A stretch of 64,000 nt of DNA, from positions 28,062-92,061 of the forward strand of contig JANYKG010000128.1 in the NCBI GenBank assembly GCA_025358205.1, in the 5' to 3' direction. The notes under the pieces are model-generated. The model did no database searches. It had not been told where the DNA came from and saw only the letters and a program-made list of their open reading frames with translations. Each line of letters starts with the position of its first letter. Position 1 is the first letter of the stretch. This stretch comes from Armatimonadota bacterium (GTDB taxonomy: Bacteria; Armatimonadota; UBA5829; DTJY01). The position numbers and the translations under genes were made by a program. Positions 275 to 46,987 of this stretch are shown piece after piece.

Positions 275-1318
275 ATGAGAGCAGGCATAGTTGGAGCATC
301 GGGATACGCCGGGGGTGAGTTGGTAAGAATTCTAGCCGGTCACCCAGGCGTAGAACTCACATATTTGTGTTCGGAGACCTACAAGGGTCAGGATATCAGT
401 GCCGCCTTACCGAACATGCGTGGCCTACTGAGCAAGGAATGCGTGTCGTATGACCCGGCGACCGCGGTGGAGCAGTGCGAGGTAGTGTTCCTGGCGCAGA
501 GCAATGGCTGGGCGATGAATCAGGCCGCAAAACTGCTGGAGGCCGGGCTTAAGGTCATTGATCTCAGCGCGGATTTTCGGCTGAAGTCCATTGCTGCATA
601 TCAGGAGTGGTACAAGCTCTCGCATACATCGCCGGATCTTCTGACAGGCGCGATCTACGGACTGCCTGAGTTACACAAGACCGCTATTCAGGCCGCGAAC
701 CTCGTGGCGAACCCAGGGTGTTACTGCACCAGCGCGATTCTGGCCCTTGCCCCGCTCCTCAAGGATCGGTTGGTTGAGCCTGATACGGTTATAGTGGATT
801 CCAAATCGGGCGTCTCCGGCGCGGGTCGGTCATCATTCAAGCTGGACAACCATTTTCCTGAGCTGAACGAGAGCATGAAGGCATACAATATCGGCGTTCA
901 CAGGCATACTCCTGAGATCGAGCAGGAGTTGACTCTGCTCGCTGGTCGGGCGATGAAGATATCTTTCACGCCGCATCTTATCCCCATCACCAGGGGTATC
1001 CTGACTACCGCTTATGCAGGACTGATAGCGCCGGACTGGACTACCGAGGAGCTGATAACGCTGTATGCGGAGTTCTACGGATCGGCTGCATTTGTCCAGG
1101 TGTTGGACGCCGGGCAGTATCCGACCACGAAGGCGGTCTGCGGCGGCAACTTCTGCCACATCGGGCTGAGAGTTGACCCGCGAACGAACCGCGTGGTGGT
1201 CGTGTCTGCGCTGGACAACATGGTTAAGGGCGCGGCGGGACAAGCTGTGCAGAACATGAACCTGATGTTTGGGCTTGACGAGATGGCAGGGCTGGACAGA
1301 GCGGGGGTGTATCCGTGA
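275..1318 (+). CDS. argC: N-acetyl-gamma-glutamyl-phosphate reductase
   Basis: MRAGIVGASGYAGGELVRIL Rossmann start; NPGCYCTSAILALAPL active-site motif; start chosen at ATG 275 inside ORF 170-1318. Confidence 0.95.
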   Translation: MRAGIVGASGYAGGELVRILAGHPGVELTYLCSETYKGQDISAALPNMRGLLSKECVSYDPATAVEQCEVVFLAQSNGWAMNQAAKLLEAGLKVIDLSADFRLKSIAAYQEWYKLSHTSPDLLTGAIYGLPELHKTAIQAANLVANPGCYCTSAILALAPLLKDRLVEPDTVIVDSKSGVSGAGRSSFKLDNHFPELNESMKAYNIGVHRHTPEIEQELTLLAGRAMKISFTPHLIPITRGILTTAYAGLIAPDWTTEELITLYAEFYGSAAFVQVLDAGQYPTTKAVCGGNFCHIGLRVDPRTNRVVVVSALDNMVKGAAGQAVQNMNLMFGLDEMAGLDRAGVYP

Positions 1319-2517
1319 TGGCGGATGTGACAGGTGCGGTTACATTTCCAAAGGGGTTCAAGGCAGCGGGCGTTCGGGCCGGGCTGAAGGAACAGGGGCT
1401 GGACATGGCGTTGATCGTGTCCGACGTGCCTGCTGTTGCGGCAGGTGTGTTCACGACCAATGTGGTGAAGGCTGCCCCGGTCTTGCTGAGCAAATCGCGC
1501 GTGCCGAGCGACAAGGTTAGTGCGGTGATCGTGAACAGTGGAAACGCCAATGCCTGCACAGGCGAGCAGGGGATGGCGGATGCTGTGGCAATGGCTGAGC
1601 AGACTGCCCAGGGGCTTGGCATTTCAGCGGAAGCGGTTCTGGTCGCTTCGACGGGTATCATCGGGAAGCGCATGCCGATGGACAAGATCACGTCTGGAAT
1701 CGCTGATGCGGTGCGGTCACTCAGCGCTGACGGTGGGGCCGATGCAGCGCGGGCGATTATGACGACCGACACTGTCCCGAAGGAAGCCGTTGCTGAAATC
1801 GTTATTGGTGATATCAAAGTGCGCATAGGCGGTATTGCAAAGGGCGCCGGGATGATTTGTCCGAACGTGGCTACCATGCTGACGTTTATCACTACGGATG
1901 CTGCCATTACGCCGGATGCTCTGCAGGGTTGCCTGGCAAAATCCGCTGAGGTATCGTTCAACTGTCTGACTGTTGACGGCGATACCAGCACGAATGACTC
2001 AGTGATAATGCTCGCGAACGGACTGGCTGGCAATGATCCTATCGCTATCGGCAGCGAACATGTTGCGAAGTTCCAGGAGGGATTGGACGGCGTAACGACC
2101 AGCTTGGCGCAGCAAATAGCCGCAGACGGTGAGGGTGCCACTAAGAACGTGACCATCACTGTGGACGGCGCGAAGACATACGATGAGTGCAGACAGATCG
2201 CGAAGACCATTGCCAATTCGCCTCTGGTGAAAACGGCAATGTTCGGGTGCGACCCGAACTGGGGGCGCATCCTGGCAGCGGCGGGCAGGGCAGGGGTGGA
2301 TTTTGACCCTGCGGCGGTGAAACTGAGTATGGGTGACATTACGCTTGTTCTGGCCGGTGAGCCGATTGCTTTTTCGGAAGACGAGGCGCACGAATATCTG
2401 ACCAACAGAGATATTCTGATCAGGCTTAAGGTTGGCGATGGCGGGTCGTCGTCTACTGTCTGGACATGCGATTTCTCATACGATTACGTGAAGATCAACG
2501 CGGAGTATCATACGTAG
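1315..2517 (+). CDS. argJ: Bifunctional glutamate N-acetyltransferase/amino-acid acetyltransferase
   Basis: Full-length Arg[22 protein letters not shown] autoprocessing-site motif; overlaps argC stop. Confidence 0.95.
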
Positions 2518-2617
2518 GCTTTTGCTTGGAGAGCCTCTGCACGGTGCGGCAAAGCGAGGCGGCTGCTTGTGGAGTAAGAGCAAGAGTACGAGTACGAGGA
2601 AGAGATACGAGGGAGAG

Positions 2618-3469
2618 ATGAAGAATAGGGCTGAACAGGCGGAGATACTGGTTCACGCATTGCCGTACATCAGGCAGTATCACGGTAAGACCGTGGTCAT
2701 CAAGTACGGCGGGAATGCCATGACCGACGAGGCGCTGAAAGAGAGCGTTACGAAGGACATCGTCCTCCTGCACTACGTTGGGTTGCGCCCGGTTGTGGTA
2801 CACGGCGGCGGCCCCGAGATCACCGAGATGCTGAACCGCGTCGGCAAGGTGTCGGACTTCGTAAACGGTCGGCGTGTTACGGATGCCGAGACCATGGAGA
2901 TAGTCGAGATGGTGCTGGCTGGGAAGACCAACAAGAGCATTGTCTCGCTTATCAACCAGCAGGGCGGTACGGCGGTGGGCCTCAGCGGCAAGGACGCGAA
3001 TCTTCTGGTGGCGAAGAAGGCGATGCCGGACGGCGTGGACATCGGCCAGGTCGGCGACATCGTTGAGGTGAACACGGATATCATTCTGACGCTCATTGAA
3101 AAGGGCTACATTCCGGTACTCTGCTCGGTTGCAGTGGGTGAGAACGGTGAGTCATACAATGTGAACGCAGACACTGTCGCGGGTGAAATCGCGGCGGCTC
3201 TGGGCGCGGAGAAGCTGCTGATGCTGACCGATGTGCAGGGCGTGTACCGGGATTTCAGCGATAAATCCAGCCTGCTCAGCGAACTATCCGTCGCGGAGGC
3301 GGAGGAAGTTGCGAAGTCCGTGGATAAGGGTATGATACCCAAGTTGGAAGCGTGTATCACCGCGATTCGAGGCGGCGTTGGGAAGGCTCACATCATTGAC
3401 GGCACGATACCACACTCGCTGCTGATGGAAGTTTTTACTGACACGGGCATCGGCACGATGATTGCGTAA
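2618..3469 (+). CDS. argB: Acetylglutamate kinase
   Basis: [44 protein letters not shown] motifs; start at ATG 2618. Confidence 0.95.
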
Positions 3470-3638: not shown

Positions 3639-4856
3639 ATGTCGGTCACTGAGAAAAAATACGATACGCGGGCAGTCATGGAAATGGACGCCGCTTACAT
3701 GATGCATTTTGTGAACCGGTTGCCGGTAGTGTTTGTGCGCGGTAAAGGCATGCAGTTGTGGGATGCGGACGGCAAGGAATATTTGGATTTTCTGGCGGGT
3801 ATAGGAGTGATGGGGCTGGGGCATTCCCATCTGGATTTAGTTGCTGCCATAAGCGCACAGGCGGCGGAACTGATGCATGTCAGCAATCTGTTCTACATGC
3901 CTCAGCAAGCCATGCTCGGCAAGCGGTTGGTTGAGCTTTCCGGCATGGGGAAGGCATTCTTCTGCAACAGTGGTGCGGAGGCGAACGAAGCTGCGATCAA
4001 GCTGGCCCGTAAGTGGTCAAAGGACAAATACGGTCCGCACAAGCACGAGATCATCACATTCTATGGTTCGTTTCACGGACGCACCATGGCCACAGTTACC
4101 GCGACTGCCCAGCCCAAGTACCATGAAGGATTTCATCCGATGCTGCCGGGGTTCAAGTATGTGTCGTTCAACGACCTGGCTGCCATCGAAGCGGCAGTTA
4201 CCGACGATACATGCGCAATTATGTTTGAACCGGTTCAGGGTGAAAGCGGCGTCCATCTTGCGACGCAGGAATTCATGTCAGGAGTTCGCAAGCTGTGCAA
4301 CGACCGGGGCATTCTGCTGATACTTGATGAGGTTCAGTGTGGTTTGGGTCGAACCGGCAAGTGGTTTGGATACGAACACTATGGAGTTAAGCCGGATATC
4401 ATGACGCTGGCGAAGACACTGGGCGGCGGGTTCCCGATAGGCGCTTGTCTGGCGACTGATGATGTTGGCGGTGCATTTGTGCCTGGAAACCATTCATCCA
4501 CGTTTGGAGGCAATGCGCTGGGATGCGCTGCGGCGCTGGCAACTCTAGATATTATGGAAAGAGAGAGCCTGATACGGAACTCTGCTGAAACAGGAGCGTA
4601 TCTAAAAGAAAGACTACTGGAGTTACAGAGCAGCCGATCGGATATTTGCGAGGTGCGAGGTGTGGGCCTCATGTGCGCTCTGGAGTTCACCACTGAAATA
4701 GCTGCGGACCTTGGCGCGGAATGCCTGCGCAGAGGTCTGGTTGTGAATCCGATAGGCAAGAACATTTTGAGGATGCTTCCTCCGCTGATATGCAGCAGGG
4801 AAGATGTAGATATCGCTGTCGGCATCATTGCCGAATCAATTCAGGGCATTTCGTAA
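3639..4856 (+). CDS. argD: Acetylornithine aminotransferase
   Basis: Class III aminotransferase: FCNSGAEANEAAIKLARK, ILDEVQCGLGRTG, TLAKTLGGGFPIGA; operon context. Confidence 0.93.
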   Translation: MSVTEKKYDTRAVMEMDAAYMMHFVNRLPVVFVRGKGMQLWDADGKEYLDFLAGIGVMGLGHSHLDLVAAISAQAAELMHVSNLFYMPQQAMLGKRLVELSGMGKAFFCNSGAEANEAAIKLARKWSKDKYGPHKHEIITFYGSFHGRTMATVTATAQPKYHEGFHPMLPGFKYVSFNDLAAIEAAVTDDTCAIMFEPVQGESGVHLATQEFMSGVRKLCNDRGILLILDEVQCGLGRTGKWFGYEHYGVKPDIMTLAKTLGGGFPIGACLATDDVGGAFVPGNHSSTFGGNALGCAAALATLDIMERESLIRNSAETGAYLKERLLELQSSRSDICEVRGVGLMCALEFTTEIAADLGAECLRRGLVVNPIGKNILRMLPPLICSREDVDIAVGIIAESIQGIS

Positions 4857-4927: not shown

Positions 4928-5416
4928 ATGTGGAAACAGCTCACCCATAAGGCCAGGAAAGCTATCTGCCTGGCGCAAGAGGAAGCAGGGCGTCTGGGGT
5001 ACAGCAATGTCAGTCCGGAGCATCTGCTCCTCGCGCTTTCACGGGAAGACGACTGCATGGCGGTGGCCATACTTGAAGGCATGGGACTCGATACCGGGAC
5101 AGTTCGCGCCCGTACCATGAAACAGCTTTCGCGCGGCACAGATTCGCCGAGTCAGGACATGCAGTTGACCTTCGAGGCAAAGAGCGTTATTGACCTGGCT
5201 TTCTCGGAATGTAGAGAAATGAAGGAAGATTGGGTGGGAACGGAGCATTTACTTCTTGGTATATTGCGCTCCACGGAAAGCATGGCGGCCGGTGTGCTGG
5301 CGGAACTGGGTGTTGAAATGTCCAGCGTCCGAAATCAGATCAGAAATCTGAAGGCCGGTACACTTCCAATGGGTATAGTCAACGGAAACGGTTCTATGAC
5401 TCTACTCAGCATATAG
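4928..5416 (+). CDS. Stand-alone Clp N-terminal (Clp_N) double-repeat protein, no AAA+ module
   Basis: MWKQLTHKARKAICLAQEEAGRLGYSNVSPEHLLLAL...QLTFEAKSVIDLAFSECREMKEDWVGTEHLLLGIL matches both ClpC N-domain repeats; ORF ends at 162 aa; GGGAGGT RBS upstream. Confidence 0.9.
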   Translation: MWKQLTHKARKAICLAQEEAGRLGYSNVSPEHLLLALSREDDCMAVAILEGMGLDTGTVRARTMKQLSRGTDSPSQDMQLTFEAKSVIDLAFSECREMKEDWVGTEHLLLGILRSTESMAAGVLAELGVEMSSVRNQIRNLKAGTLPMGIVNGNGSMTLLSI

Positions 5417-5453
5417 TCGGCATCCGGGCGAGGAGCGCACCAGGGAGTGCGGG

Positions 5454-6887
5454 ATGTGGCAGAAGTTTACGGAACGGGCAAGGCGCGCTGTCTTCTTTGC
5501 TCAGGAAGAAGCCGCCAGGTACGGTTGGGATAAGGTTGCTACTGAGCATTTGCTGATGGGTCTCGTCAGAGAAACCGACAGCATTGCGATAAGAGCCTTG
5601 GAACGGATGAACGTGGATCTTCGTCGGCTGCGTGCGGACCTGGATCGGCGCGCGCCGAGGGCTGAGAGCATCAACAGCGGGCGAGACATGCAACTCACCG
5701 CGGACGCGCGTAAGGCTATTGACCTTGCGTATGTTGAAGCTCGCGACTTCGATAACAGCTACATTGGTACGGAACACCTGCTGCTTGGGCTTATGCGTGA
5801 AAATGATGGATTGGCTGCCCGGATACTCACAGACGCCGGCGCTGATCTGGAACAAGCGCGTTGCATCATCGCTGCCATGCAGGGAATTCGTCTCCCAAAC
5901 ACTATCCCACACGGCATTGATAACGCGATAAAGGCATGTAAGATGAAAAGCATTGACGATAGCATGAGAGGGAGAGACTTTCTCTCCATAAGAGATTTGA
6001 GACTAGCTGAGGTTCAGCGGATATTCACCGTAGCCTCGGAACTCAAAGACACGCCTCTGTCAGAGCAGGTGGAGAACCCGATATTGGCCGGCAAGACGTT
6101 GGCGATGATCTTCGAGAAGCCTTCCCTGCGAACAAGGGTGTCCTTCGAGGTCGGCATGACTCAGCTTGGCGGCCATGCGATCTACCTTCAGCCGTCGGAT
6201 ATCAAGCTCGGCGAGCGTGAGACAATCGCCGACGTTGCGCGGAATTTGGAGCGTATGGTGGACGGCATCATGGCGAGGACGTTCTTGCACTCCACGGTGA
6301 CGGAACTGGCTAAACACGCAGGGATACCGGTTATCAACGGTCTATCGGACCTTGAGCATCCGTGTCAGGCGTTGGCGGACTACTTTACCATCTTCGAGAA
6401 GAAGGGTGATCTCTCCGCCGTTAAGCTTGCGTACATCGGCGATGGCTGCAACACCTGCAACAGCCTCATGCTCTTGACCGCCAAGTTCGGCGCATCCATG
6501 GTGGTGGCTTGTCCTGAGGGATATGAGCCGGACACCGCGTTGTTCACCAGTGCGCAGCGTGAGGCCCGAGAAAACGACGCGTGCATTACGGTGACGCATG
6601 ACCCATATGAGGCGGTAGCGAATGCGGATGCGGTGTACACGGACATATGGACCAGCATGGGTTTGGAGGCGGAAGCGGAGAAAAGACTGGAAGCCTTCCG
6701 ACCATATCAAGTGAATAGTGAGCTTCTGCGCGCGGCGAAGAGGGATGCGATTGTGCTGCACTGCCTGCCTGCACACAGAGGCGAGGAGATAACGGACGAG
6801 GTTATAGAAGGACCTCAGTCGGTGGTGTTTGATGAGGCGGAGAACAGACTTCACGTGCAGAAGGCTGTCATGGCCTTGATGATGTAG
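5454..6887 (+). CDS. argF: Clp_N domain fused to ornithine carbamoyltransferase
   Basis: One uninterrupted 477-aa ORF: residues about 1-145 ClpC-N-like (KFTERARRAVFFAQEEA...ATEHLLMGLV...YIGTEHLLLGLM); about 165-477 complete OTC (FEKPSLRTRVSFE, HPCQALADYFT, HCLPAHRGEEITDEV). Confidence 0.93.
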   Translation: MWQKFTERARRAVFFAQEEAARYGWDKVATEHLLMGLVRETDSIAIRALERMNVDLRRLRADLDRRAPRAESINSGRDMQLTADARKAIDLAYVEARDFDNSYIGTEHLLLGLMRENDGLAARILTDAGADLEQARCIIAAMQGIRLPNTIPHGIDNAIKACKMKSIDDSMRGRDFLSIRDLRLAEVQRIFTVASELKDTPLSEQVENPILAGKTLAMIFEKPSLRTRVSFEVGMTQLGGHAIYLQPSDIKLGERETIADVARNLERMVDGIMARTFLHSTVTELAKHAGIPVINGLSDLEHPCQALADYFTIFEKKGDLSAVKLAYIGDGCNTCNSLMLLTAKFGASMVVACPEGYEPDTALFTSAQREARENDACITVTHDPYEAVANADAVYTDIWTSMGLEAEAEKRLEAFRPYQVNSELLRAAKRDAIVLHCLPAHRGEEITDEVIEGPQSVVFDEAENRLHVQKAVMALMM

Positions 6888-6917: not shown

Positions 6918-8105
6918 ATGAAAAAAGTCGTGCTTTCATATTCCGGGGGACTGGATACCTCGGTGTGCATACCGATGATGAAGGAGTTCTACGGGTTCGA
7001 CGAGATCGTGACCGTCACCGTGGACGTTGGTCAGCCGGACAGTGATATCAAAGAGGCCGAAGAGAAGGCCAAGACGCTGGGTACCGAGCATTACACCATT
7101 GACGCCAAAGAGGAGTTCGCGGTGGACTACTGCTGGCCGTCCGTGAAGGCGAACGGCGACTACCAGGGATATCCGATTAGCACATCCATCGCCCGCCCGC
7201 TCATCGCGGTGAAGGCGGCTGAAATTGCGAAGAAGACCGGCGCAGAGGCGTTTTGTCACGGATGCACGGGGAAGGGGAACGACCAGTTCCGCTTCGAGTA
7301 CGTTGTGCGGGCGCTGGCCCCTGAGATGGAAATTATCGCCCCTATGCGGGAGCGAAACTATACTCGGACGGAAGAGATTGAGTACGCAAAGCAGCACGGC
7401 GTGCCGGTTGGGCAGAGCTCCGACAAGATATGGAGCATAGACGAGAACCTCTGGGGCAGGTCTATCGAGGGCGGACGGCTTGAAGAGCCGAACTATGCGC
7501 CGCCGGAGGAGATCTTCCACTGGACGACGCGCGCACAGGACTGCCCGGATACCCCGGCGATCGTGCAGATCGGCTTCGAGGACGGTGTGCCTGTCTCAAT
7601 CAATGGATTCAAGATGGACCCGGTTTCGCTCATCACTGCGGCCCACAAGCTGGCGGGTGACAATGGCGTGGGCCGGGTGGACATCATGGAGGACAGGATT
7701 CTAGGGCTGAAGGTTCGAGAGAACTATGAGTGTCCGGCTGCCGTCCTTCTCATCATGGCTCACAAGTCGCTGGAAGGTTTGGTCTGCACCAAGGATGAGC
7801 GCATGTTCAAGACCATGGTTGACCAGAAGTGGGGCGAGCTTGCATACGCCGGGCTGTGGTTTGACGCGCTGAAGGATGCGCTCGAAGCGTTCATCAACAA
7901 GATTCAGGAGCGGGTCACCGGGACGGTTTCGCTGGAGCTGTTCAAGGGCAACGCGAAGGTGATCGGACGGACCAGCCCGTTCGCGCTGTATAATGAGGAT
8001 CTCGCCTCGTTTGACTCGAAGACCTTCGATCAGAGCGAGATGACGGGTGCGGTTAAGGTACACGGTCTGCAGTCGCGGATGTACTGGATGCTGAAGAAGG
8101 ACTAG
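6918..8105 (+). CDS. argG: Argininosuccinate synthase
   Basis: KKVVLSYSGGLDTSVCIPM; GCTGKGNDQFRFE; ATG 6918 with AAGGAG RBS (ORF track opens at TTG 6888). Confidence 0.96.
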   Translation: MKKVVLSYSGGLDTSVCIPMMKEFYGFDEIVTVTVDVGQPDSDIKEAEEKAKTLGTEHYTIDAKEEFAVDYCWPSVKANGDYQGYPISTSIARPLIAVKAAEIAKKTGAEAFCHGCTGKGNDQFRFEYVVRALAPEMEIIAPMRERNYTRTEEIEYAKQHGVPVGQSSDKIWSIDENLWGRSIEGGRLEEPNYAPPEEIFHWTTRAQDCPDTPAIVQIGFEDGVPVSINGFKMDPVSLITAAHKLAGDNGVGRVDIMEDRILGLKVRENYECPAAVLLIMAHKSLEGLVCTKDERMFKTMVDQKWGELAYAGLWFDALKDALEAFINKIQERVTGTVSLELFKGNAKVIGRTSPFALYNEDLASFDSKTFDQSEMTGAVKVHGLQSRMYWMLKKD

Positions 8106-8107
8106 TG

Positions 8108-9502
8108 ATGGCAAAGCTGTGGGGCGGTCGGTTCAGTAAGGAAACATCAAAACTAGTAGATCAGTTCAACGCCTCGATAGGCTTCGATTGCAGGCTGTGG
8201 GAGCATGATATTCGCGGCAGTATTGCGCACGCCTCCATGCTGGGCAAGTGCGGCATAATACCGCAGGCGGATGCTGAAGCGATTGTCGTCGGCTTGCGCG
8301 GCATTGAGGATGACATCCGCGTAGGTCAGGTGGAGTTCGACGTTTCCGCCGAAGACATTCACATGAATATCGAGAAGTTGTTGCACCAGCGCATTGGCGA
8401 TGTGGCAGGCAGGCTTCACACCGCCCGAAGCCGGAATGACCAGATTGCTCTCGACCTTCGCATGTACGTGAAGGATCAGATAACATACGCCATTGAGGCC
8501 ATCAAGGGCCTGCAGACGGCGCTGATTGCCACTGCTGAGAAGCATCAGGAAACGGTGATGCCCGGCTACACGCACCTCCAGCACGCGCAGCCCGTGACAC
8601 TGGCGCATCACGTTATGGCCTATTTCTGGATGCTGCAGCGTGACGTGGAGCGATTTGCCGACTGCTACAAGCGCACTGACGTGATGCCTCTCGGTTCGGC
8701 GGCGATGGCCGGCACCTCGTATCCCATTGATCGTCAGTATGTGGCGGACCAGCTTGGTTTCTCACGAGTCAGCGAGAACAGCATGGACGCGGTTGCGGAC
8801 CGGGATTTCGCTGCTGAGTTCCTTGCTGACTGCGCCATTCTTTCAATGCATATGTCGCGGTTTGCCGAAGAGATCATCATTTGGAACACCCGCGAGTTTG
8901 GGTTTGTGGAACTGGATGATGCGATGGCGACCGGCAGCAGCATCATGCCGCAGAAGAAGAACCCCGATGTTGCCGAACTGATTCGCGGGAAAACCGGTCG
9001 GGTCTACGGCGATCTCACTGCGCTGCTCACGGTGCTTAAGGGCCTGCCACTGACCTACAACAAGGATCTTCAGGAAGACAAAGAACCTGTGTTCGATGCC
9101 GCCGATACCGTGCTCCAGTGTGTGATGATGCTGCAGAAGCTGATAGAGACCACAGAGTTCCGCGCTGCCGCCATGAAGGAGTCCGCCAAGGGTGACTTCT
9201 CAACTGCTACCGATGCAGCCGACTATCTTGTTCGGCGCGGCATACCTTTCCGCCAGGCCCATGAGATTGTAGGACGCATGGTGGGGTACTGCATCGCTCA
9301 GGGAAAAGCCATCGAGGATCTGAGCCTGGAGGAGATGAAGTCGTTCTCCGAGGCGTATGAGGACTCCGGTGAGGCGTTCAACCTTGAACACAGTGTGGAG
9401 GCCAGGGGAATAATCGGCGGAACTGCGGCGAAGTTCGTGAAAGCGCAGATTGAGGCGGCACAGGCAGTCGTGAAAGCGGAAGCGATACCTGCTACAGAGT
9501 GA
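8108..9502 (+). CDS. argH: Argininosuccinate lyase
   Basis: MAKLWGGRFS; TARSRNDQIALDLRMY; GSSIMPQKKNPDVAELIRGKTGRV signature. Confidence 0.96.
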   Translation: MAKLWGGRFSKETSKLVDQFNASIGFDCRLWEHDIRGSIAHASMLGKCGIIPQADAEAIVVGLRGIEDDIRVGQVEFDVSAEDIHMNIEKLLHQRIGDVAGRLHTARSRNDQIALDLRMYVKDQITYAIEAIKGLQTALIATAEKHQETVMPGYTHLQHAQPVTLAHHVMAYFWMLQRDVERFADCYKRTDVMPLGSAAMAGTSYPIDRQYVADQLGFSRVSENSMDAVADRDFAAEFLADCAILSMHMSRFAEEIIIWNTREFGFVELDDAMATGSSIMPQKKNPDVAELIRGKTGRVYGDLTALLTVLKGLPLTYNKDLQEDKEPVFDAADTVLQCVMMLQKLIETTEFRAAAMKESAKGDFSTATDAADYLVRRGIPFRQAHEIVGRMVGYCIAQGKAIEDLSLEEMKSFSEAYEDSGEAFNLEHSVEARGIIGGTAAKFVKAQIEAAQAVVKAEAIPATE

Positions 9503-9902
9503 CGTGTTTGACCATCGTCAGCACGTTCATGCCCTGGCGGGAGCAAATCTTCATCTCATCCATGCACTGGTTGATGAGATAAAGTCCCAAACCCCCAACT
9601 CTCAGCTCGTCGTGTTTTGGTCGAGTATTTGGAATCTCAGGGTCAAACTCGCATCCTTCGTTCTGCACCTCGATCTCCAATCCGTGTGATGTGAACCTGT
9701 ACTCGACGACCACCGGGGTAGCGCATGGGTTGCTGTATTTGACGGCGTTGGCGCACGCCTCACCCACAGCCAGTGACATATCATCCATTTGCCTTTGTGT
9801 CAAAGAGAACTTGCGTCCGATCGCCTTCAGCACCATTCTGGCAATGCTCACATACCGCATGGAGCAGGGCATCTGTATTCGTATTGCTGCGTCATTTACC
9901 AT
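9492..9902 (-). CDS. RsbW-type anti-sigma factor/serine-protein kinase ATPase
   Basis: MSLAVGEACANAVKYSNP (N box), GGLGLYLINQCMDEM (G box) of HATPase_c RsbW family. Confidence 0.85.
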   Translation of the reverse strand: MVNDAAIRIQMPCSMRYVSIARMVLKAIGRKFSLTQRQMDDMSLAVGEACANAVKYSNPCATPVVVEYRFTSHGLEIEVQNEGCEFDPEIPNTRPKHDELRVGGLGLYLINQCMDEMKICSRQGMNVLTMVKHVTL

Positions 9903-12141
9903 GAACAGGAATCCTCTTGGTTCGGCGTAATGCTACCATAGCTATGTCGTCAGGTGATCGCTGCGAACCTTCGCGCATGGCAGCCTCATGGATATTATCG
10001 GTAATCTTTTGCGGATGATGCAGAGCATTTTCTGAGAGCATGCGGCCCAACGTCACCATCGGATCAAATGGTTTCATGTAAAGTGCGTTGATCAGCCCAT
10101 CGGTATAGAGTAGCAGCACGTCGCCGGCGCTGAGCCGAGCGCGCCGCTCGGTGAAACGCGCTTCTGGATGCACGCCCAGCAGCATCCCGGAGCTATGCAG
10201 GTGACGTTGGTTGCCGGCACCCGCTTTGTGCAGTATGCCCGGCTCATGTCCAGCGGAGGCGTACACGATCTCGTCGTGGCTAGAGTCTATCAGCACATAG
10301 CACATGCTTATGAAACTGTCTTCCTCGATGTATTCACAAATGAAGCGGTTCATTTTGGCCATTAAGCGGGCAGGCGATGGGATATGCTCGGCCAGTGCGC
10401 GCAGAGCATACTTACACATGCCCACGCTCTGTGACGCGGCGGTGTCTTTTCCTGATACGTCCAGAATGGCGAGGCCGTAGCGGGATTCGTCCACTCGAAT
10501 AAGATCGAAATAGTCACCGCCAACGTTGTGGGCCGGGGTAAAGCGCGTGCCTATCTGGAATCCGGGTATGTTTCCGGCTACACATGGGGTCAGCTCACGT
10601 TGTGTGACGTTGGCTATGGCCTTCTGACGCTCATAGAGGCGGGCGTTCTCAAAAGCTATTGAAGCGAGTTCTGAAAGACCTTGAACCAGGCTGATTTCCT
10701 GCCGGGAGAAACCGCCGGGGCGTGAACGGAACAGCGCTATGACACCGGAATTATTGTTCTTTAGACTCAGCGGTGCGAACAGGGCCGATCTCAGACCGGC
10801 ACGAACCGCCATGTCGGTCATGCAAATGTTTTCTGAACTGTAGGACTCGTCAACAAGCAGAGCGTTGCCCGGCTCCAAGGTGGATACTATACTCTCAGGA
10901 AGGAGCGCCCTGTATGCTGCATCGCCACCCGCCATGCCGAACCCTCCCGCCACATTATACTCCCTCGAACGCGAGTCCTTGAGAAACACGGCGCATGTTT
11001 CGCATCCCACCAGCGATTTCAGGCTTTTCACAATGAGTTTGGCGATAAGATCAGGTTCTAATCTGGATGTGACGCTCTTTGCCACCCGGTGCAGGCTGCC
11101 GAAGGTCTTTATCTGAGTTCGCACAGCGTGGTGAAGGCGGGCGTTGTGCAGGGCCATGGCCAGGTAATGCGCCGCAGTCGTTGCAAGAGCCAGCTCATCA
11201 TCGGTGAATTGCTGTTTTGTTGAAGATGTACGGTTTAGGTTTAGTACGCCAAGAACGGCCTTGTTGCTTATCAGTGGCAGGATCATGGATGAAACCACTT
11301 CGGGCCTTGGTATGGCATTTGGATAGTCAGTTCTGTTGGCGGAACCCTGGATCAACACAGGTTGATGCGATGAAAGCGCTTGGCCGGACACTGATCCACT
11401 TTCTAACAACAGCCGTTGTGGGAGCGCTTTCTTCTCCAGTCCTACTGCCGCGCCGATTCGAAGTGACGAGTCTTCTCGCACCAGCACTGACCCGCCGTCT
11501 GCGCCGACGAAACGGAGAAGCTCCAGGAATGCCAGTTCGAGCGAGTCATCAATGGAACTGCTGGCTATGGTCCGTATGCGTTCCAGTGAGTCAGCTCGCC
11601 GTCTATGTTCAGTGTCGCGATTACTGGACATGAGTGCGGCGGCGGCATGGTTGGCGGCTGTGTTTAATATTTCCAGTTCCCAAACGAGGAACGGGTCCGT
11701 GTCAACGCGGCTGCACACCAGTACGACTGGGCAGTGGCCGTCAGTGACTATCGGTATGCAGGCCAGGGTATGAGAGCCGGAAGTGTGCAGCAGATCGGCG
11801 CATGCTGAGATGGGACTGCAGAGGCGGCTAACTACCTTCGGTGATTGCGCGTCTGCGACGTCTCTTACGCTGCAGCCGTGATGAGCGTGACAATCTGCCG
11901 GTAGTCCCCATGAGGCGTTTTTGGATGCCAGTGGTACGCATGGTCCGCCGTCCGGTGAGAGGTGCAGGAGAATAGCGCTGTGGGCTTTCAGGCAGTCAAC
12001 AGGCAACCCTACCACCGCATCAAGAACCTTTGTCAGGTCTCCGTCTGCGGTGTTTCGCGAAAGCGTCTGCAAGTATCCGCATGCATTTATCAGATGATTC
12101 GCAGGCGCGGCATCAGGTTCCGCTGCTACCTTGATCTTCAT
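9892..12141 (-). CDS. Multi-GAF domain SpoIIE/RsbU-type PP2C phosphatase
   Basis: GAF-like regions, C-terminal VGGDYFDLIRVDESRYGLAILDVSGKDTAASQSVGM...DVLLLYTDGLINA...DDIAMVALRR. Confidence 0.88.
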   Translation of the reverse strand: MKIKVAAEPDAAPANHLINACGYLQTLSRNTADGDLTKVLDAVVGLPVDCLKAHSAILLHLSPDGGPCVPLASKNASWGLPADCHAHHGCSVRDVADAQSPKVVSRLCSPISACADLLHTSGSHTLACIPIVTDGHCPVVLVCSRVDTDPFLVWELEILNTAANHAAAALMSSNRDTEHRRRADSLERIRTIASSSIDDSLELAFLELLRFVGADGGSVLVREDSSLRIGAAVGLEKKALPQRLLLESGSVSGQALSSHQPVLIQGSANRTDYPNAIPRPEVVSSMILPLISNKAVLGVLNLNRTSSTKQQFTDDELALATTAAHYLAMALHNARLHHAVRTQIKTFGSLHRVAKSVTSRLEPDLIAKLIVKSLKSLVGCETCAVFLKDSRSREYNVAGGFGMAGGDAAYRALLPESIVSTLEPGNALLVDESYSSENICMTDMAVRAGLRSALFAPLSLKNNNSGVIALFRSRPGGFSRQEISLVQGLSELASIAFENARLYERQKAIANVTQRELTPCVAGNIPGFQIGTRFTPAHNVGGDYFDLIRVDESRYGLAILDVSGKDTAASQSVGMCKYALRALAEHIPSPARLMAKMNRFICEYIEEDSFISMCYVLIDSSHDEIVYASAGHEPGILHKAGAGNQRHLHSSGMLLGVHPEARFTERRARLSAGDVLLLYTDGLINALYMKPFDPMVTLGRMLSENALHHPQKITDNIHEAAMREGSQRSPDDIAMVALRRTKRIPVHGK

Positions 12142-12338: not shown

Positions 12339-12535
12339 GCATTAATTTCATTTCCGGTTTGCGCAGAAGGTAATCTGGTAAGCGCCGCGATGCTCTGGTG
12401 TGAGTATGGGATGCATCATAAATGACACTGAAACGGCAGCACGGCAGGACTTTTCGTTGGCTAGGTCTAACATCACCGTAATAGTGAGCATTCGGCTCAC
12501 CTGTGAAACACAAAATCCTTAGTCAGGAGTTACTG

Positions 12536-13372
12536 ATGTCATTAGTCCTTCCGGTTGTCCAGATAACGGCGAAGACTCTTCCCGAAGCATGGGAGAAATC
12601 CGTGCTTGAAACGTGGGAGCACGGCGCGAGAATAGCCACTCAGTATGATAAACCCGGCGACCCGGTCAGCCGCGACGCAATCTGCGTGATAGCGGTAACC
12701 GACCCGTTCGCGGAGCCTCGCATTCACCGAGCATTCCCCGGCGGGATAGTTGAGCTTGAGGCGTATCGGCAGGAGGTTGTCGAGGGTATTCACGACCACT
12801 GGGTTGACCCGGAGGCGGGCAAGTGGGAGTACACCTACCACGAGCGTCTGGCGGCATACTCTGTGCCCGGACTTTCGACGCCGATTGACCAGGTGGAGTA
12901 TATGATCAACGCGCTTTCAGAAGCTCCGCATACTCGCAGAGCGCAGGCGATTACCTGGAAGCCGTGGGAAGACGCAGGCATCCACGATCCGGCGTGTCTT
13001 CAGCGAATCTGGTGCCGGATATTTGACGATGAGCTGGTGATGAACGTCCACATGCGCTCGAACGACGCGTACAAGGCCGCGTTCATGAACATGTATGCGT
13101 TCACTGACCTTCAGCGGATGGTGGCGGACGAGGTGTCGAAGCGGCTTGGCCGGACGATCAACGTCGGCCAGTACACGCATATCGCGGATTCTTATCACAT
13201 CTATGGCGCGTATTTCGACGAGTTTGAGGGGTTCTTGAATACCCTCAAGGCGCGCACATTTGATGAGCGGACTTACTGCACTGAGGATGTTCAGGATATC
13301 ACAGACGAGGCGAGGGAGCAGATCGCGAAATCCCTGTCCGCCGAAGCGGTATCGGGCCGCAAAGGACTGTAG
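12536..13372 (+). CDS. Divergent thymidylate synthase/dCMP hydroxymethylase family protein
   Basis: DPACLQRIWCRIFDDELVMNVHMRSNDAYKAAFMNMYAFTDLQRMVADEV...VGQYTHIADSYHIYG follows TS-family order with non-canonical motifs; AGGAG RBS. Confidence 0.7.
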   Translation: MSLVLPVVQITAKTLPEAWEKSVLETWEHGARIATQYDKPGDPVSRDAICVIAVTDPFAEPRIHRAFPGGIVELEAYRQEVVEGIHDHWVDPEAGKWEYTYHERLAAYSVPGLSTPIDQVEYMINALSEAPHTRRAQAITWKPWEDAGIHDPACLQRIWCRIFDDELVMNVHMRSNDAYKAAFMNMYAFTDLQRMVADEVSKRLGRTINVGQYTHIADSYHIYGAYFDEFEGFLNTLKARTFDERTYCTEDVQDITDEAREQIAKSLSAEAVSGRKGL

Positions 13373-45278: not shown

Positions 45279-46031
<753 letters not shown>

Positions 46032-46048
46032 CGCAGGGAGGCCATACA

Positions 46049-46987
46049 ATGCGCCTGAAGAGAAAAGACATTTTGGGCTTGGAGGAGATGTCCTCAGACG
46101 AGATAGAGCTGATACTCCAGACGGCTCTGTCCTTCAAGGAGATATTGGGCAGGCAGATCAAGAAGGTGCCTACTCTGCGGGGCCGGTCTGTGGTGACGCT
46201 GTTTTACGAACCGAGCACTCGCACGCGAACTTCGTTTGAGCTTGCCGCCAAGATACTAAGCGCCGACACTTCCAGCATAGCGCCGTCAACCAGCAGCGTT
46301 GTGAAGGGCGAGTCGCTGAAGGATACCATCCTCACGCTCAGGGCGATGAAGCCGGATCTATTCATTATGCGCCATCAGTGCTCAGGCGCAGCGCACTTTG
46401 TGGCGAAGATGATACCCGAACACGTGATAAACGCGGGCGACGGCATGCACGAGCATCCTACTCAGGGACTGTTGGACATGCTCTCCATCCACGAGAAGAA
46501 GGGCAAGATCAGCGGACTGACCGTGGCGATAGTGGGCGACATTCTACACAGCAGGGTAGCACGCTCCAACATGTGGGGGCTGACCAAGATGGGCGCAAAG
46601 GTGCGGCTGGTCGGTCCGAAGACCCTCATCCCCCCTGAAGCAAGGAATCTTCCAGTCGAGGTTTACACCAATCTGGAAGAGGGACTGAAGGGCGTGGATG
46701 TGGTGAACGTCCTGCGAATCCAGCTTGAGCGCATGAAGAAGGGGCTGCTGCCGAGCCTGCGCGAGTACTCCACGATGTTTGGCATCAGCAAAGAACGCCT
46801 GAAGGCGGCTAAGGATGACGTGATTGTGCTGCATCCCGGTCCGATGAACCGAGGCGTGGAGATCATGCCCGAGGTCGCGGATGACCCGGTATGCCTGGTT
46901 ACTGAGCAGGTGACGAACGGTGTGGCGGTACGTATGGCGCTGCTCTACCTGCTGTTAGGAGGGACCGAAGATGCGGCTGCTGCTTAA
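46049..46987 (+). CDS. pyrB: Aspartate carbamoyltransferase catalytic subunit
   Basis: FYEPSTRTRTSFELAAK; DGMHEHPTQGLLDMLSI; VLHPGPMNRGVEI. Confidence 0.95.
   Translation: MRLKRKDILGLEEMSSDEIELILQTALSFKEILGRQIKKVPTLRGRSVVTLFYEPSTRTRTSFELAAKILSADTSSIAPSTSSVVKGESLKDTILTLRAMKPDLFIMRHQCSGAAHFVAKMIPEHVINAGDGMHEHPTQGLLDMLSIHEKKGKISGLTVAIVGDILHSRVARSNMWGLTKMGAKVRLVGPKTLIPPEARNLPVEVYTNLEEGLKGVDVVNVLRIQLERMKKGLLPSLREYSTMFGISKERLKAAKDDVIVLHPGPMNRGVEIMPEVADDPVCLVTEQVTNGVAVRMALLYLLLGGTEDAAAA

Follow-up and report, generated by a model that had tools for sequence, protein, structure and literature searches.

A ClpC-type N-terminal domain fused in frame to ornithine carbamoyltransferase in the arginine operon of Armatimonadota

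In the genome of an Armatimonadota bacterium, the only gene for ornithine carbamoyltransferase (OTC) encodes a chain that begins with a ClpC-type N-terminal domain (Clp_N). The fusion certainly exists, and we conclude that in the Armatimonadota it represents a genuine multidomain OTC of ancient standing. It lies in a complete arginine operon, in the order argC-argJ-argB-argD-[Clp_N]-[Clp_N-OTC]-argG-argH, within the 64,000 nucleotide stretch of DNA that was analysed (the window). The features are listed below, numbered from the first nucleotide of the window.

278..1318, + strand: argC (TIGR01850; longest ORF from 170)
1315..2517, + strand: argJ
2612..3469, + strand: argB (longest ORF from 2522)
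3639..4856, + strand: argD
4928..5416, + strand: stand-alone two-repeat Clp_N protein, 162 aa, without an ATPase, directly upstream of the fusion
5442..5447, + strand: Shine-Dalgarno sequence AGGGAG preceding the fusion start (duplex -7.7 kcal/mol)
5454..6887, + strand: Clp_N-OTC fusion gene, 477 aa; the genome's only ornithine carbamoyltransferase gene
5454..5888, + strand: ClpC-type N-domain, residues 1-145, two Clp_N repeats
5469..5471, + strand: T6, equivalent to ClpC T7, phosphoarginine site 1
5544..5546, + strand: E31, equivalent to ClpC E32, phosphoarginine site 1
5697..5699, + strand: T82, equivalent to ClpC T81, phosphoarginine site 2
5772..5774, + strand: E107, equivalent to ClpC E106, phosphoarginine site 2
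5889..5963, + strand: linker, residues 146-170, with little conservation among relatives
5964..6884, + strand: ornithine carbamoyltransferase domain, residues 171-477
6918..8105, + strand: argG (longest ORF from 6888)
8105..9502, + strand: argH

The ORF at 5454-6887 has 477 codons, an ATG start and no internal stop codon in its translation. Pfam places Clp_N (PF02861) in two stretches of the product (E 2e-29), OTCace_N (PF02729) at residues 174-315 (E 8e-50) and OTCace (PF00185) at residues 323-476 (E 5e-62), all above the gathering cut-offs, and the NCBIfam ornithine carbamoyltransferase model TIGR00658 scores 421 bits (cut-off 280.85). These matches confirm the original prediction, made from the DNA alone, that a Clp_N domain and a complete OTC share one 477-codon ORF. 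The SLRTR, HPCQ and HCLP motifs that it had reported as kept are indeed in the translation, where the active-site set SxRTR, HPxQ, SMG and HCLP is represented in full. The best solved relatives of the fused N-domain are ClpC N-domains (E 2e-31), which identifies it as ClpC-type, and it is 41 % identical to the B. subtilis ClpC N-domain and 58 % identical to that of the genome's own ClpC. AAA+ D1 and D2 modules and an M-domain are absent from the Pfam matches and the translation and, as the chain instead runs on into OTC, the fusion protein is not a ClpC. The AlphaFold2 model, made with an alignment of 13 relatives, has a confident Clp_N domain at residues 1-145 (pLDDT mostly near 90), a disordered stretch of about 20 residues of the linker (146-165, pLDDT below 50) and an OTC that is again modelled with confidence (mean pLDDT 83.7, pTM 0.62). 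The OTC part matches the P. furiosus OTC structure 1a1s with a TM-score of 0.90 (by target length) at 56 % identity. Judged by sequence and predicted fold, the OTC core is complete.

Clp_N domains are found genome-wide only in ClpC, in ClpB and in the two arg operon genes, and those outside ATPases are all in the arg operon. The stand-alone Clp_N gene is kept at the equivalent place in the four other genomes of the family; neither this gene nor the arg operon setting was included in the original prediction. As the genome's carbamoyltransferases are one OTC and one PyrB (46028-46987 in the window), the sister transcarbamoylase of OTC, arginine synthesis must depend on the fusion. Another contig of the same genome (L075) has an mcsA-like gene, mcsB and clpC in succession, and their presence supports the original prediction in part. 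McsA, McsB and ClpC make up a phosphoarginine degradation system, in which McsB is the protein-arginine kinase. The McsB match (264 bits) is above the Pfam cut-off and below the NCBIfam equivalog cut-off of 385. The genome's ClpB, a chaperone that does not work with ClpP, matches TIGR03346 above the cut-off.

The original prediction had allowed that the single ORF might be an assembly artefact and that the fusion might be absent from all relatives. Both are refuted by at least 37 of 291 Armatimonadota genomes, independently assembled and belonging to 12 families (f1, f3, f4, f5, f7, f8, f10, f11, f17, f21, f25 and f27), which carry Clp_N and OTC in one frame; recurrence on this scale is far more than chance would produce. 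Between close relatives, dN/dS over Clp_N is 0.02-0.17, comparable to the OTC part, and from these values Clp_N is under purifying selection in frame with OTC. The linker has evolved fast in several pairs of relatives. With low dN/dS in Clp_N and OTC and drift in the linker, both domains are selected and joined by a free tether. Production of OTC from an internal start might be suggested by ATG codons within the fusion at 5943 and 5964, and one relative (G020) has a strong Shine-Dalgarno match ahead of an internal ATG. However, the best internal ATG has a duplex of -3.2 kcal/mol, as against -7.7 at the fusion start, and in relatives such as G008, G012 and G023 the linker holds only GTG or TTG codons with weak Shine-Dalgarno matches, so that the fused chain is probably the sole OTC of those genomes. 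Chance read-through, or an internal start as the only source of OTC, is disfavoured by these energies and codons, G020 excepted, and we consider it highly improbable that the fusion is an artefact of assembly or annotation or that OTC is really made from an internal start.

The fusion is almost always between argD and argG. The Clp_N copies in the locus range from one to four (for example G046 and G077), and two or three Clp_N domains are present per chain in G029, G056 and G046. In f6 (G028, G042 and G055), a separate Clp_N ORF adjoins an unfused OTC. Many Armatimonadota lack the fusion altogether, even inside one genus, as in G022 compared with G006, G008 and G023. Outside the phylum, no Clp_N-OTC fusion was found in 400 Chloroflexota, 149 Eremiobacterota and 120 Bacillota genomes (669 in total). 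A scan of 84,980 species with two OTC motifs as the query gave 80 loci among the matches listed. Fusions among these matches were confined to Armatimonadota records or to MAGs, of which L125 and L126 match the Armatimonadota contigs G057 and G230, and the named relatives with the same architecture are Armatimonadota/Chthonomonadia MAGs. An apparent argF-clpB fusion in Anoxybacillus and Geobacillus was rejected, as the Clp ATPase is a separate downstream ORF; in L133, L151, L154 and L191 this ORF encodes 811-921 aa with a divergent Clp_N and lies directly downstream of argF.

To explain its distribution on the OTC tree, the fusion must have been gained or lost some nine to eleven times. Being lost or gained repeatedly, even within one genus, the fusion is not indispensable. 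The Clp_N tree is weakly resolved, and in it the third Clp_N of G046 groups with that genome's own ClpC (support 96/89). A single origin for all fused Clp_N domains was rejected (AU p 0.028) with this ClpC-like domain included, and gave p 0.076 without it. One or more additional events of capture or gene conversion are therefore likely, though not proven. In some lineages (G046, G030 and G057) the fused Clp_N resembles the ClpC of its host, and recurrent capture or gene conversion from the host ClpC is plausible.

The ClpC N-domain has two phosphoarginine pockets, one involving T7 and E32 and the other E106, and R9, K85 and R122 anchor the N-domain to the rest of ClpC (PMC12583610). Among 21 ClpC proteins of the phylum, the pocket and anchor positions hardly vary. 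We take T81 to be the partner of E106 at site 2, based on the symmetry of the repeats and on the residues named in the original prediction. In the window's fusion, T6, E31, T82 and E107 correspond to T7, E32, T81 and E106 of B. subtilis and S. aureus ClpC, and the T and E residues of both repeats are thus retained, as that prediction had stated. Across 33 fused domains, T7 is T or S in 33, E32 is kept in 32, T81 is T or S in 32 and E106 is kept in 31, with the full T/E/T/E set in 30. The anchors, invariant in the ClpC of the same genomes, are kept less often (R9 in 14, R83 in 16 and R122 in 15), and many fusions have N, H, D, E or G in place of R9, which is at pocket 1. The four pocket positions are less variable than other ClpC-invariant positions (P 0.013; P 0.004 among polar positions), whereas variability at the anchors is not significantly higher than at other invariant positions (P 0.06-0.24). 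The pattern suggests that the ligand side has been retained and docking to the ClpC body relaxed, the second part being subject to those P values.

The original prediction had read the T and E residues as pointing to phosphoarginine. The residues are kept, but they are not diagnostic, and as proof of phosphoarginine binding they were rejected. The genome's own ClpB has T/E/S/E at the same positions, and the two pocket Thr residues are located at helix N-termini, where T, S or D are favoured for structural reasons. Because ClpB shares the letters and the Thr residues cap helices, retention of the pocket alone does not prove binding. We consider the T/E pocket residues to be necessary, not sufficient, for a phosphoarginine receptor, and sensing of phosphoarginine by the fused domain is possible rather than demonstrated.

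McsB is found in 31 of the 37 fusion genomes and in 138 of the 254 others, or in 57 of 169 others with the large family f16 left out (Fisher 2e-8). However, phylogenetically independent contrasts gave only five pairs, with no fusion/McsB trend, and the co-occurrence, large by count, is not significant after phylogenetic pairing. The fusion genomes in which McsB was not detected are G020, G046, G066, G032, G105 and G225, and several of these assemblies are incomplete. In G001, the closest member of the family that has no fusion, McsB is missing as well, and G022 has lost the fusion and kept McsB. The link is suggestive and is not proof.

Known OTCs are trimers, and an OTC core that trimerises in the same way would carry three receptor domains, with six pocket sites, per enzyme particle. 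Our preferred reading, held tentatively and at a little below an even chance, is that the domain is a docking module through which the ClpC/McsB network controls OTC, perhaps by regulating its turnover. The tethered domain would bind partners of the ClpC N-domain, which could be ClpC itself, McsA/McsB or a different ClpC adaptor, or proteins that bear phosphoarginine, and binding would place citrulline and arginine synthesis under ClpC/McsB proteostasis control. The most likely outcome would be post-translational down-regulation of OTC under stress or starvation, through adaptor-mediated delivery to ClpCP or through sequestration, and the stand-alone Clp_N protein encoded just upstream would take part as a co-receptor or compete with the fused domain. 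The ClpC N-domain binds phosphoarginine substrates and adaptors (PMC12583610; PMC9240326), BacPROTAC work found that recruitment to this domain suffices for degradation (PMC9240326), and in B. subtilis starved of glucose, PyrB is reportedly among the targets of ClpCP (PMC5746743). Docking is favoured by the sole OTC gene, conservation in 12 families, the dN/dS values, the restriction of non-ATPase Clp_N to the arg operon, the presence of mcsA-mcsB-clpC and the retained pocket. Against it, ClpB shares the pocket residues, the association with McsB loses significance when independent pairs are compared, the fusion has been repeatedly lost or gained, and some fusion genomes have no detected McsB. 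In addition, the N-domain of ClpC belongs to the protease and not to the substrate, and carrying one would not obviously make a protein a substrate. That a receptor of the phosphoarginine system has been transplanted onto OTC, which would read the phosphoarginine/McsB state directly and couple arginine production to quality control, we rate as somewhat unlikely.

The retained pocket and relaxed contacts to the ClpC body would also suit a receptor decoy, in which OTC trimers and the stand-alone Clp_N form an abundant, multivalent sink for phosphoarginine proteins, adaptors or N-domain-targeting antibiotics, buffering ClpCP, with OTC mainly the carrier. The way in which Clp_N copies have built up into arrays at the locus (from one up to four; G046 and G077) is consistent with this, and mycobacterial ClpC2 and ClpC3 counteract N-domain ligands (PMC10914731). 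However, a decoy needs neither an arg operon position held in 12 families nor fusion to OTC specifically, and the genome has no other Clp_N fusion carrier; we consider it unlikely. Specific fusion to an arginine-pathway enzyme inside the arg operon would be accounted for if occupancy of the Clp_N pockets by arginine, phosphoarginine or some other guanidino compound served as an allosteric feedback valve on OTC, and this would agree with the four pocket residues kept in 30 of the 33 domains and with the micromolar affinity of the ClpC N-domain for the free amino acid phosphoarginine (PMC9604228). A valve of this kind is nevertheless distinctly unlikely, given that S. aureus ClpC is activated by phosphoarginine and not by unphosphorylated arginine (PMC12583610), that a disordered, drifting linker would be poor at allosteric coupling, and that R9 at pocket 1 is so often replaced. 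ArgB also has an N-terminal extension typical of arginine-inhibited acetylglutamate kinases, so feedback is probably already present.

A purely structural role, with a stable helical module serving as a solubility, oligomerisation or metabolon-scaffolding tag unlinked to proteolysis, would fit the loose linker, the relaxed anchor residues, the repeated gain or loss and the existence of other OTC fusion partners in the phylum, such as ArgD in f16 and part of f17. This we find quite improbable, as polar pocket residues are retained beyond other ClpC-invariant positions and the fused Clp_N is recurrently like the host ClpC (G046, G030 and G057). That resemblance points to some importance in matching the partner set of the live ClpC.

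Relative to anabolic ArgF (TIGR00658; PDB 1a1s and 4nf2), the fusion has the same catalytic domain, motifs, fold and arg operon position, but known ArgF starts at the carbamoyl-phosphate domain, whereas here 145 residues of Clp_N and a linker precede it. The two Clp_N repeats and the T7/E32/T81/E106 equivalents are shared with the ClpC N-domain (PF02861; B. subtilis ClpC NTD, PDB 5hbn). Unlike ClpC, the fusion lacks AAA+ modules, the M-domain and the ClpP loop, has its Clp_N on a metabolic enzyme, and in many members has relaxed inter-domain anchors. Mycobacterial ClpC2 and ClpC3, which are related to ClpC, likewise supply the ClpC receptor domain in additional copies that are not part of the active unfoldase and provide a decoy precedent, but they have no enzyme attached and are not in a biosynthetic operon. 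Turnover of PyrB and biosynthetic enzymes by ClpCP in starved B. subtilis would be an analogous case of ClpC-dependent control of a transcarbamoylase, although the B. subtilis substrate has no ClpC receptor domain.

Both parts are known families, and what appears new is the re-use of an AAA+ protease receptor domain on a metabolic enzyme. ClpC N-domains are known in unfoldases, stand-alone Clp_N proteins and decoys, and their use as a module of a core metabolic enzyme was not found described in the literature searched. The fusion, its operon context and its phylum-wide conservation were also undescribed in that literature, which largely omitted subscription papers. A fusion kept by selection across many species suggests a built-in connection between arginine synthesis and protein quality control. 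Binding of McsB, phosphoarginine or ClpC would show a biosynthetic pathway wired to regulated proteolysis, provide a precedent from nature for the BacPROTAC-like logic of engineered targeting to ClpC, and allow the physiological role that arginine phosphorylation has outside Bacillota to be tested with a single purified protein.

Several variant loci were observed. In a thirteenth family, the gene between argD and argG in G037 (L073, 7717-9168) joins Clp_N to a transcarbamoylase-like domain that has diverged; this domain is 26-32 % identical and has lost the catalytic motifs, a normal OTC is encoded elsewhere (L052), and the fusion is possibly a dead enzyme retained for a Clp_N or regulatory role. 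In G028 (L094, 9529-11631) and G042 (L095, 8109-10325), the OTC ORF shares its frame with a Clp_N dyad ORF, from which a stop codon separates it, making the two loci candidates for recent fission or read-through. McsB was not detected in these two genomes, the Clp_N of the locus has D, H or E for T81, and the ClpC of G042 also has D. G001 (L091), the sole family member without the fusion, has an OTC without Clp_N in a rearranged locus; the stand-alone Clp_N is still beside argD, and a second, divergent carbamoyltransferase (25 % identity) is nearby. G052 (L049, 11689-13269) encodes a 527 aa protein downstream of argH, with three Clp_N matches as its only Pfam domains. In many f16 genomes and part of f17, OTC is instead fused to ArgD (acetylornithine aminotransferase) in chains of about 740 aa (for example L213, 1288-3498, and L214, 4048-6315).

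In the window, a GAF-SpoIIE phosphatase and HATPase_c_2 (anti-sigma-kinase-like) pair at 9492-12141 (- strand) is convergent with argH. A similar pair adjoins the arg operon in G002, G004, G012, G019, G027 and G058, making this stress-signalling module a recurrent neighbour of the operon. Also beside the operon, at 12503-13372 (+ strand), is a gene for a thymidylate-synthase-like protein (weak Pfam match, E 4e-12), which may be a diverged member of that family.
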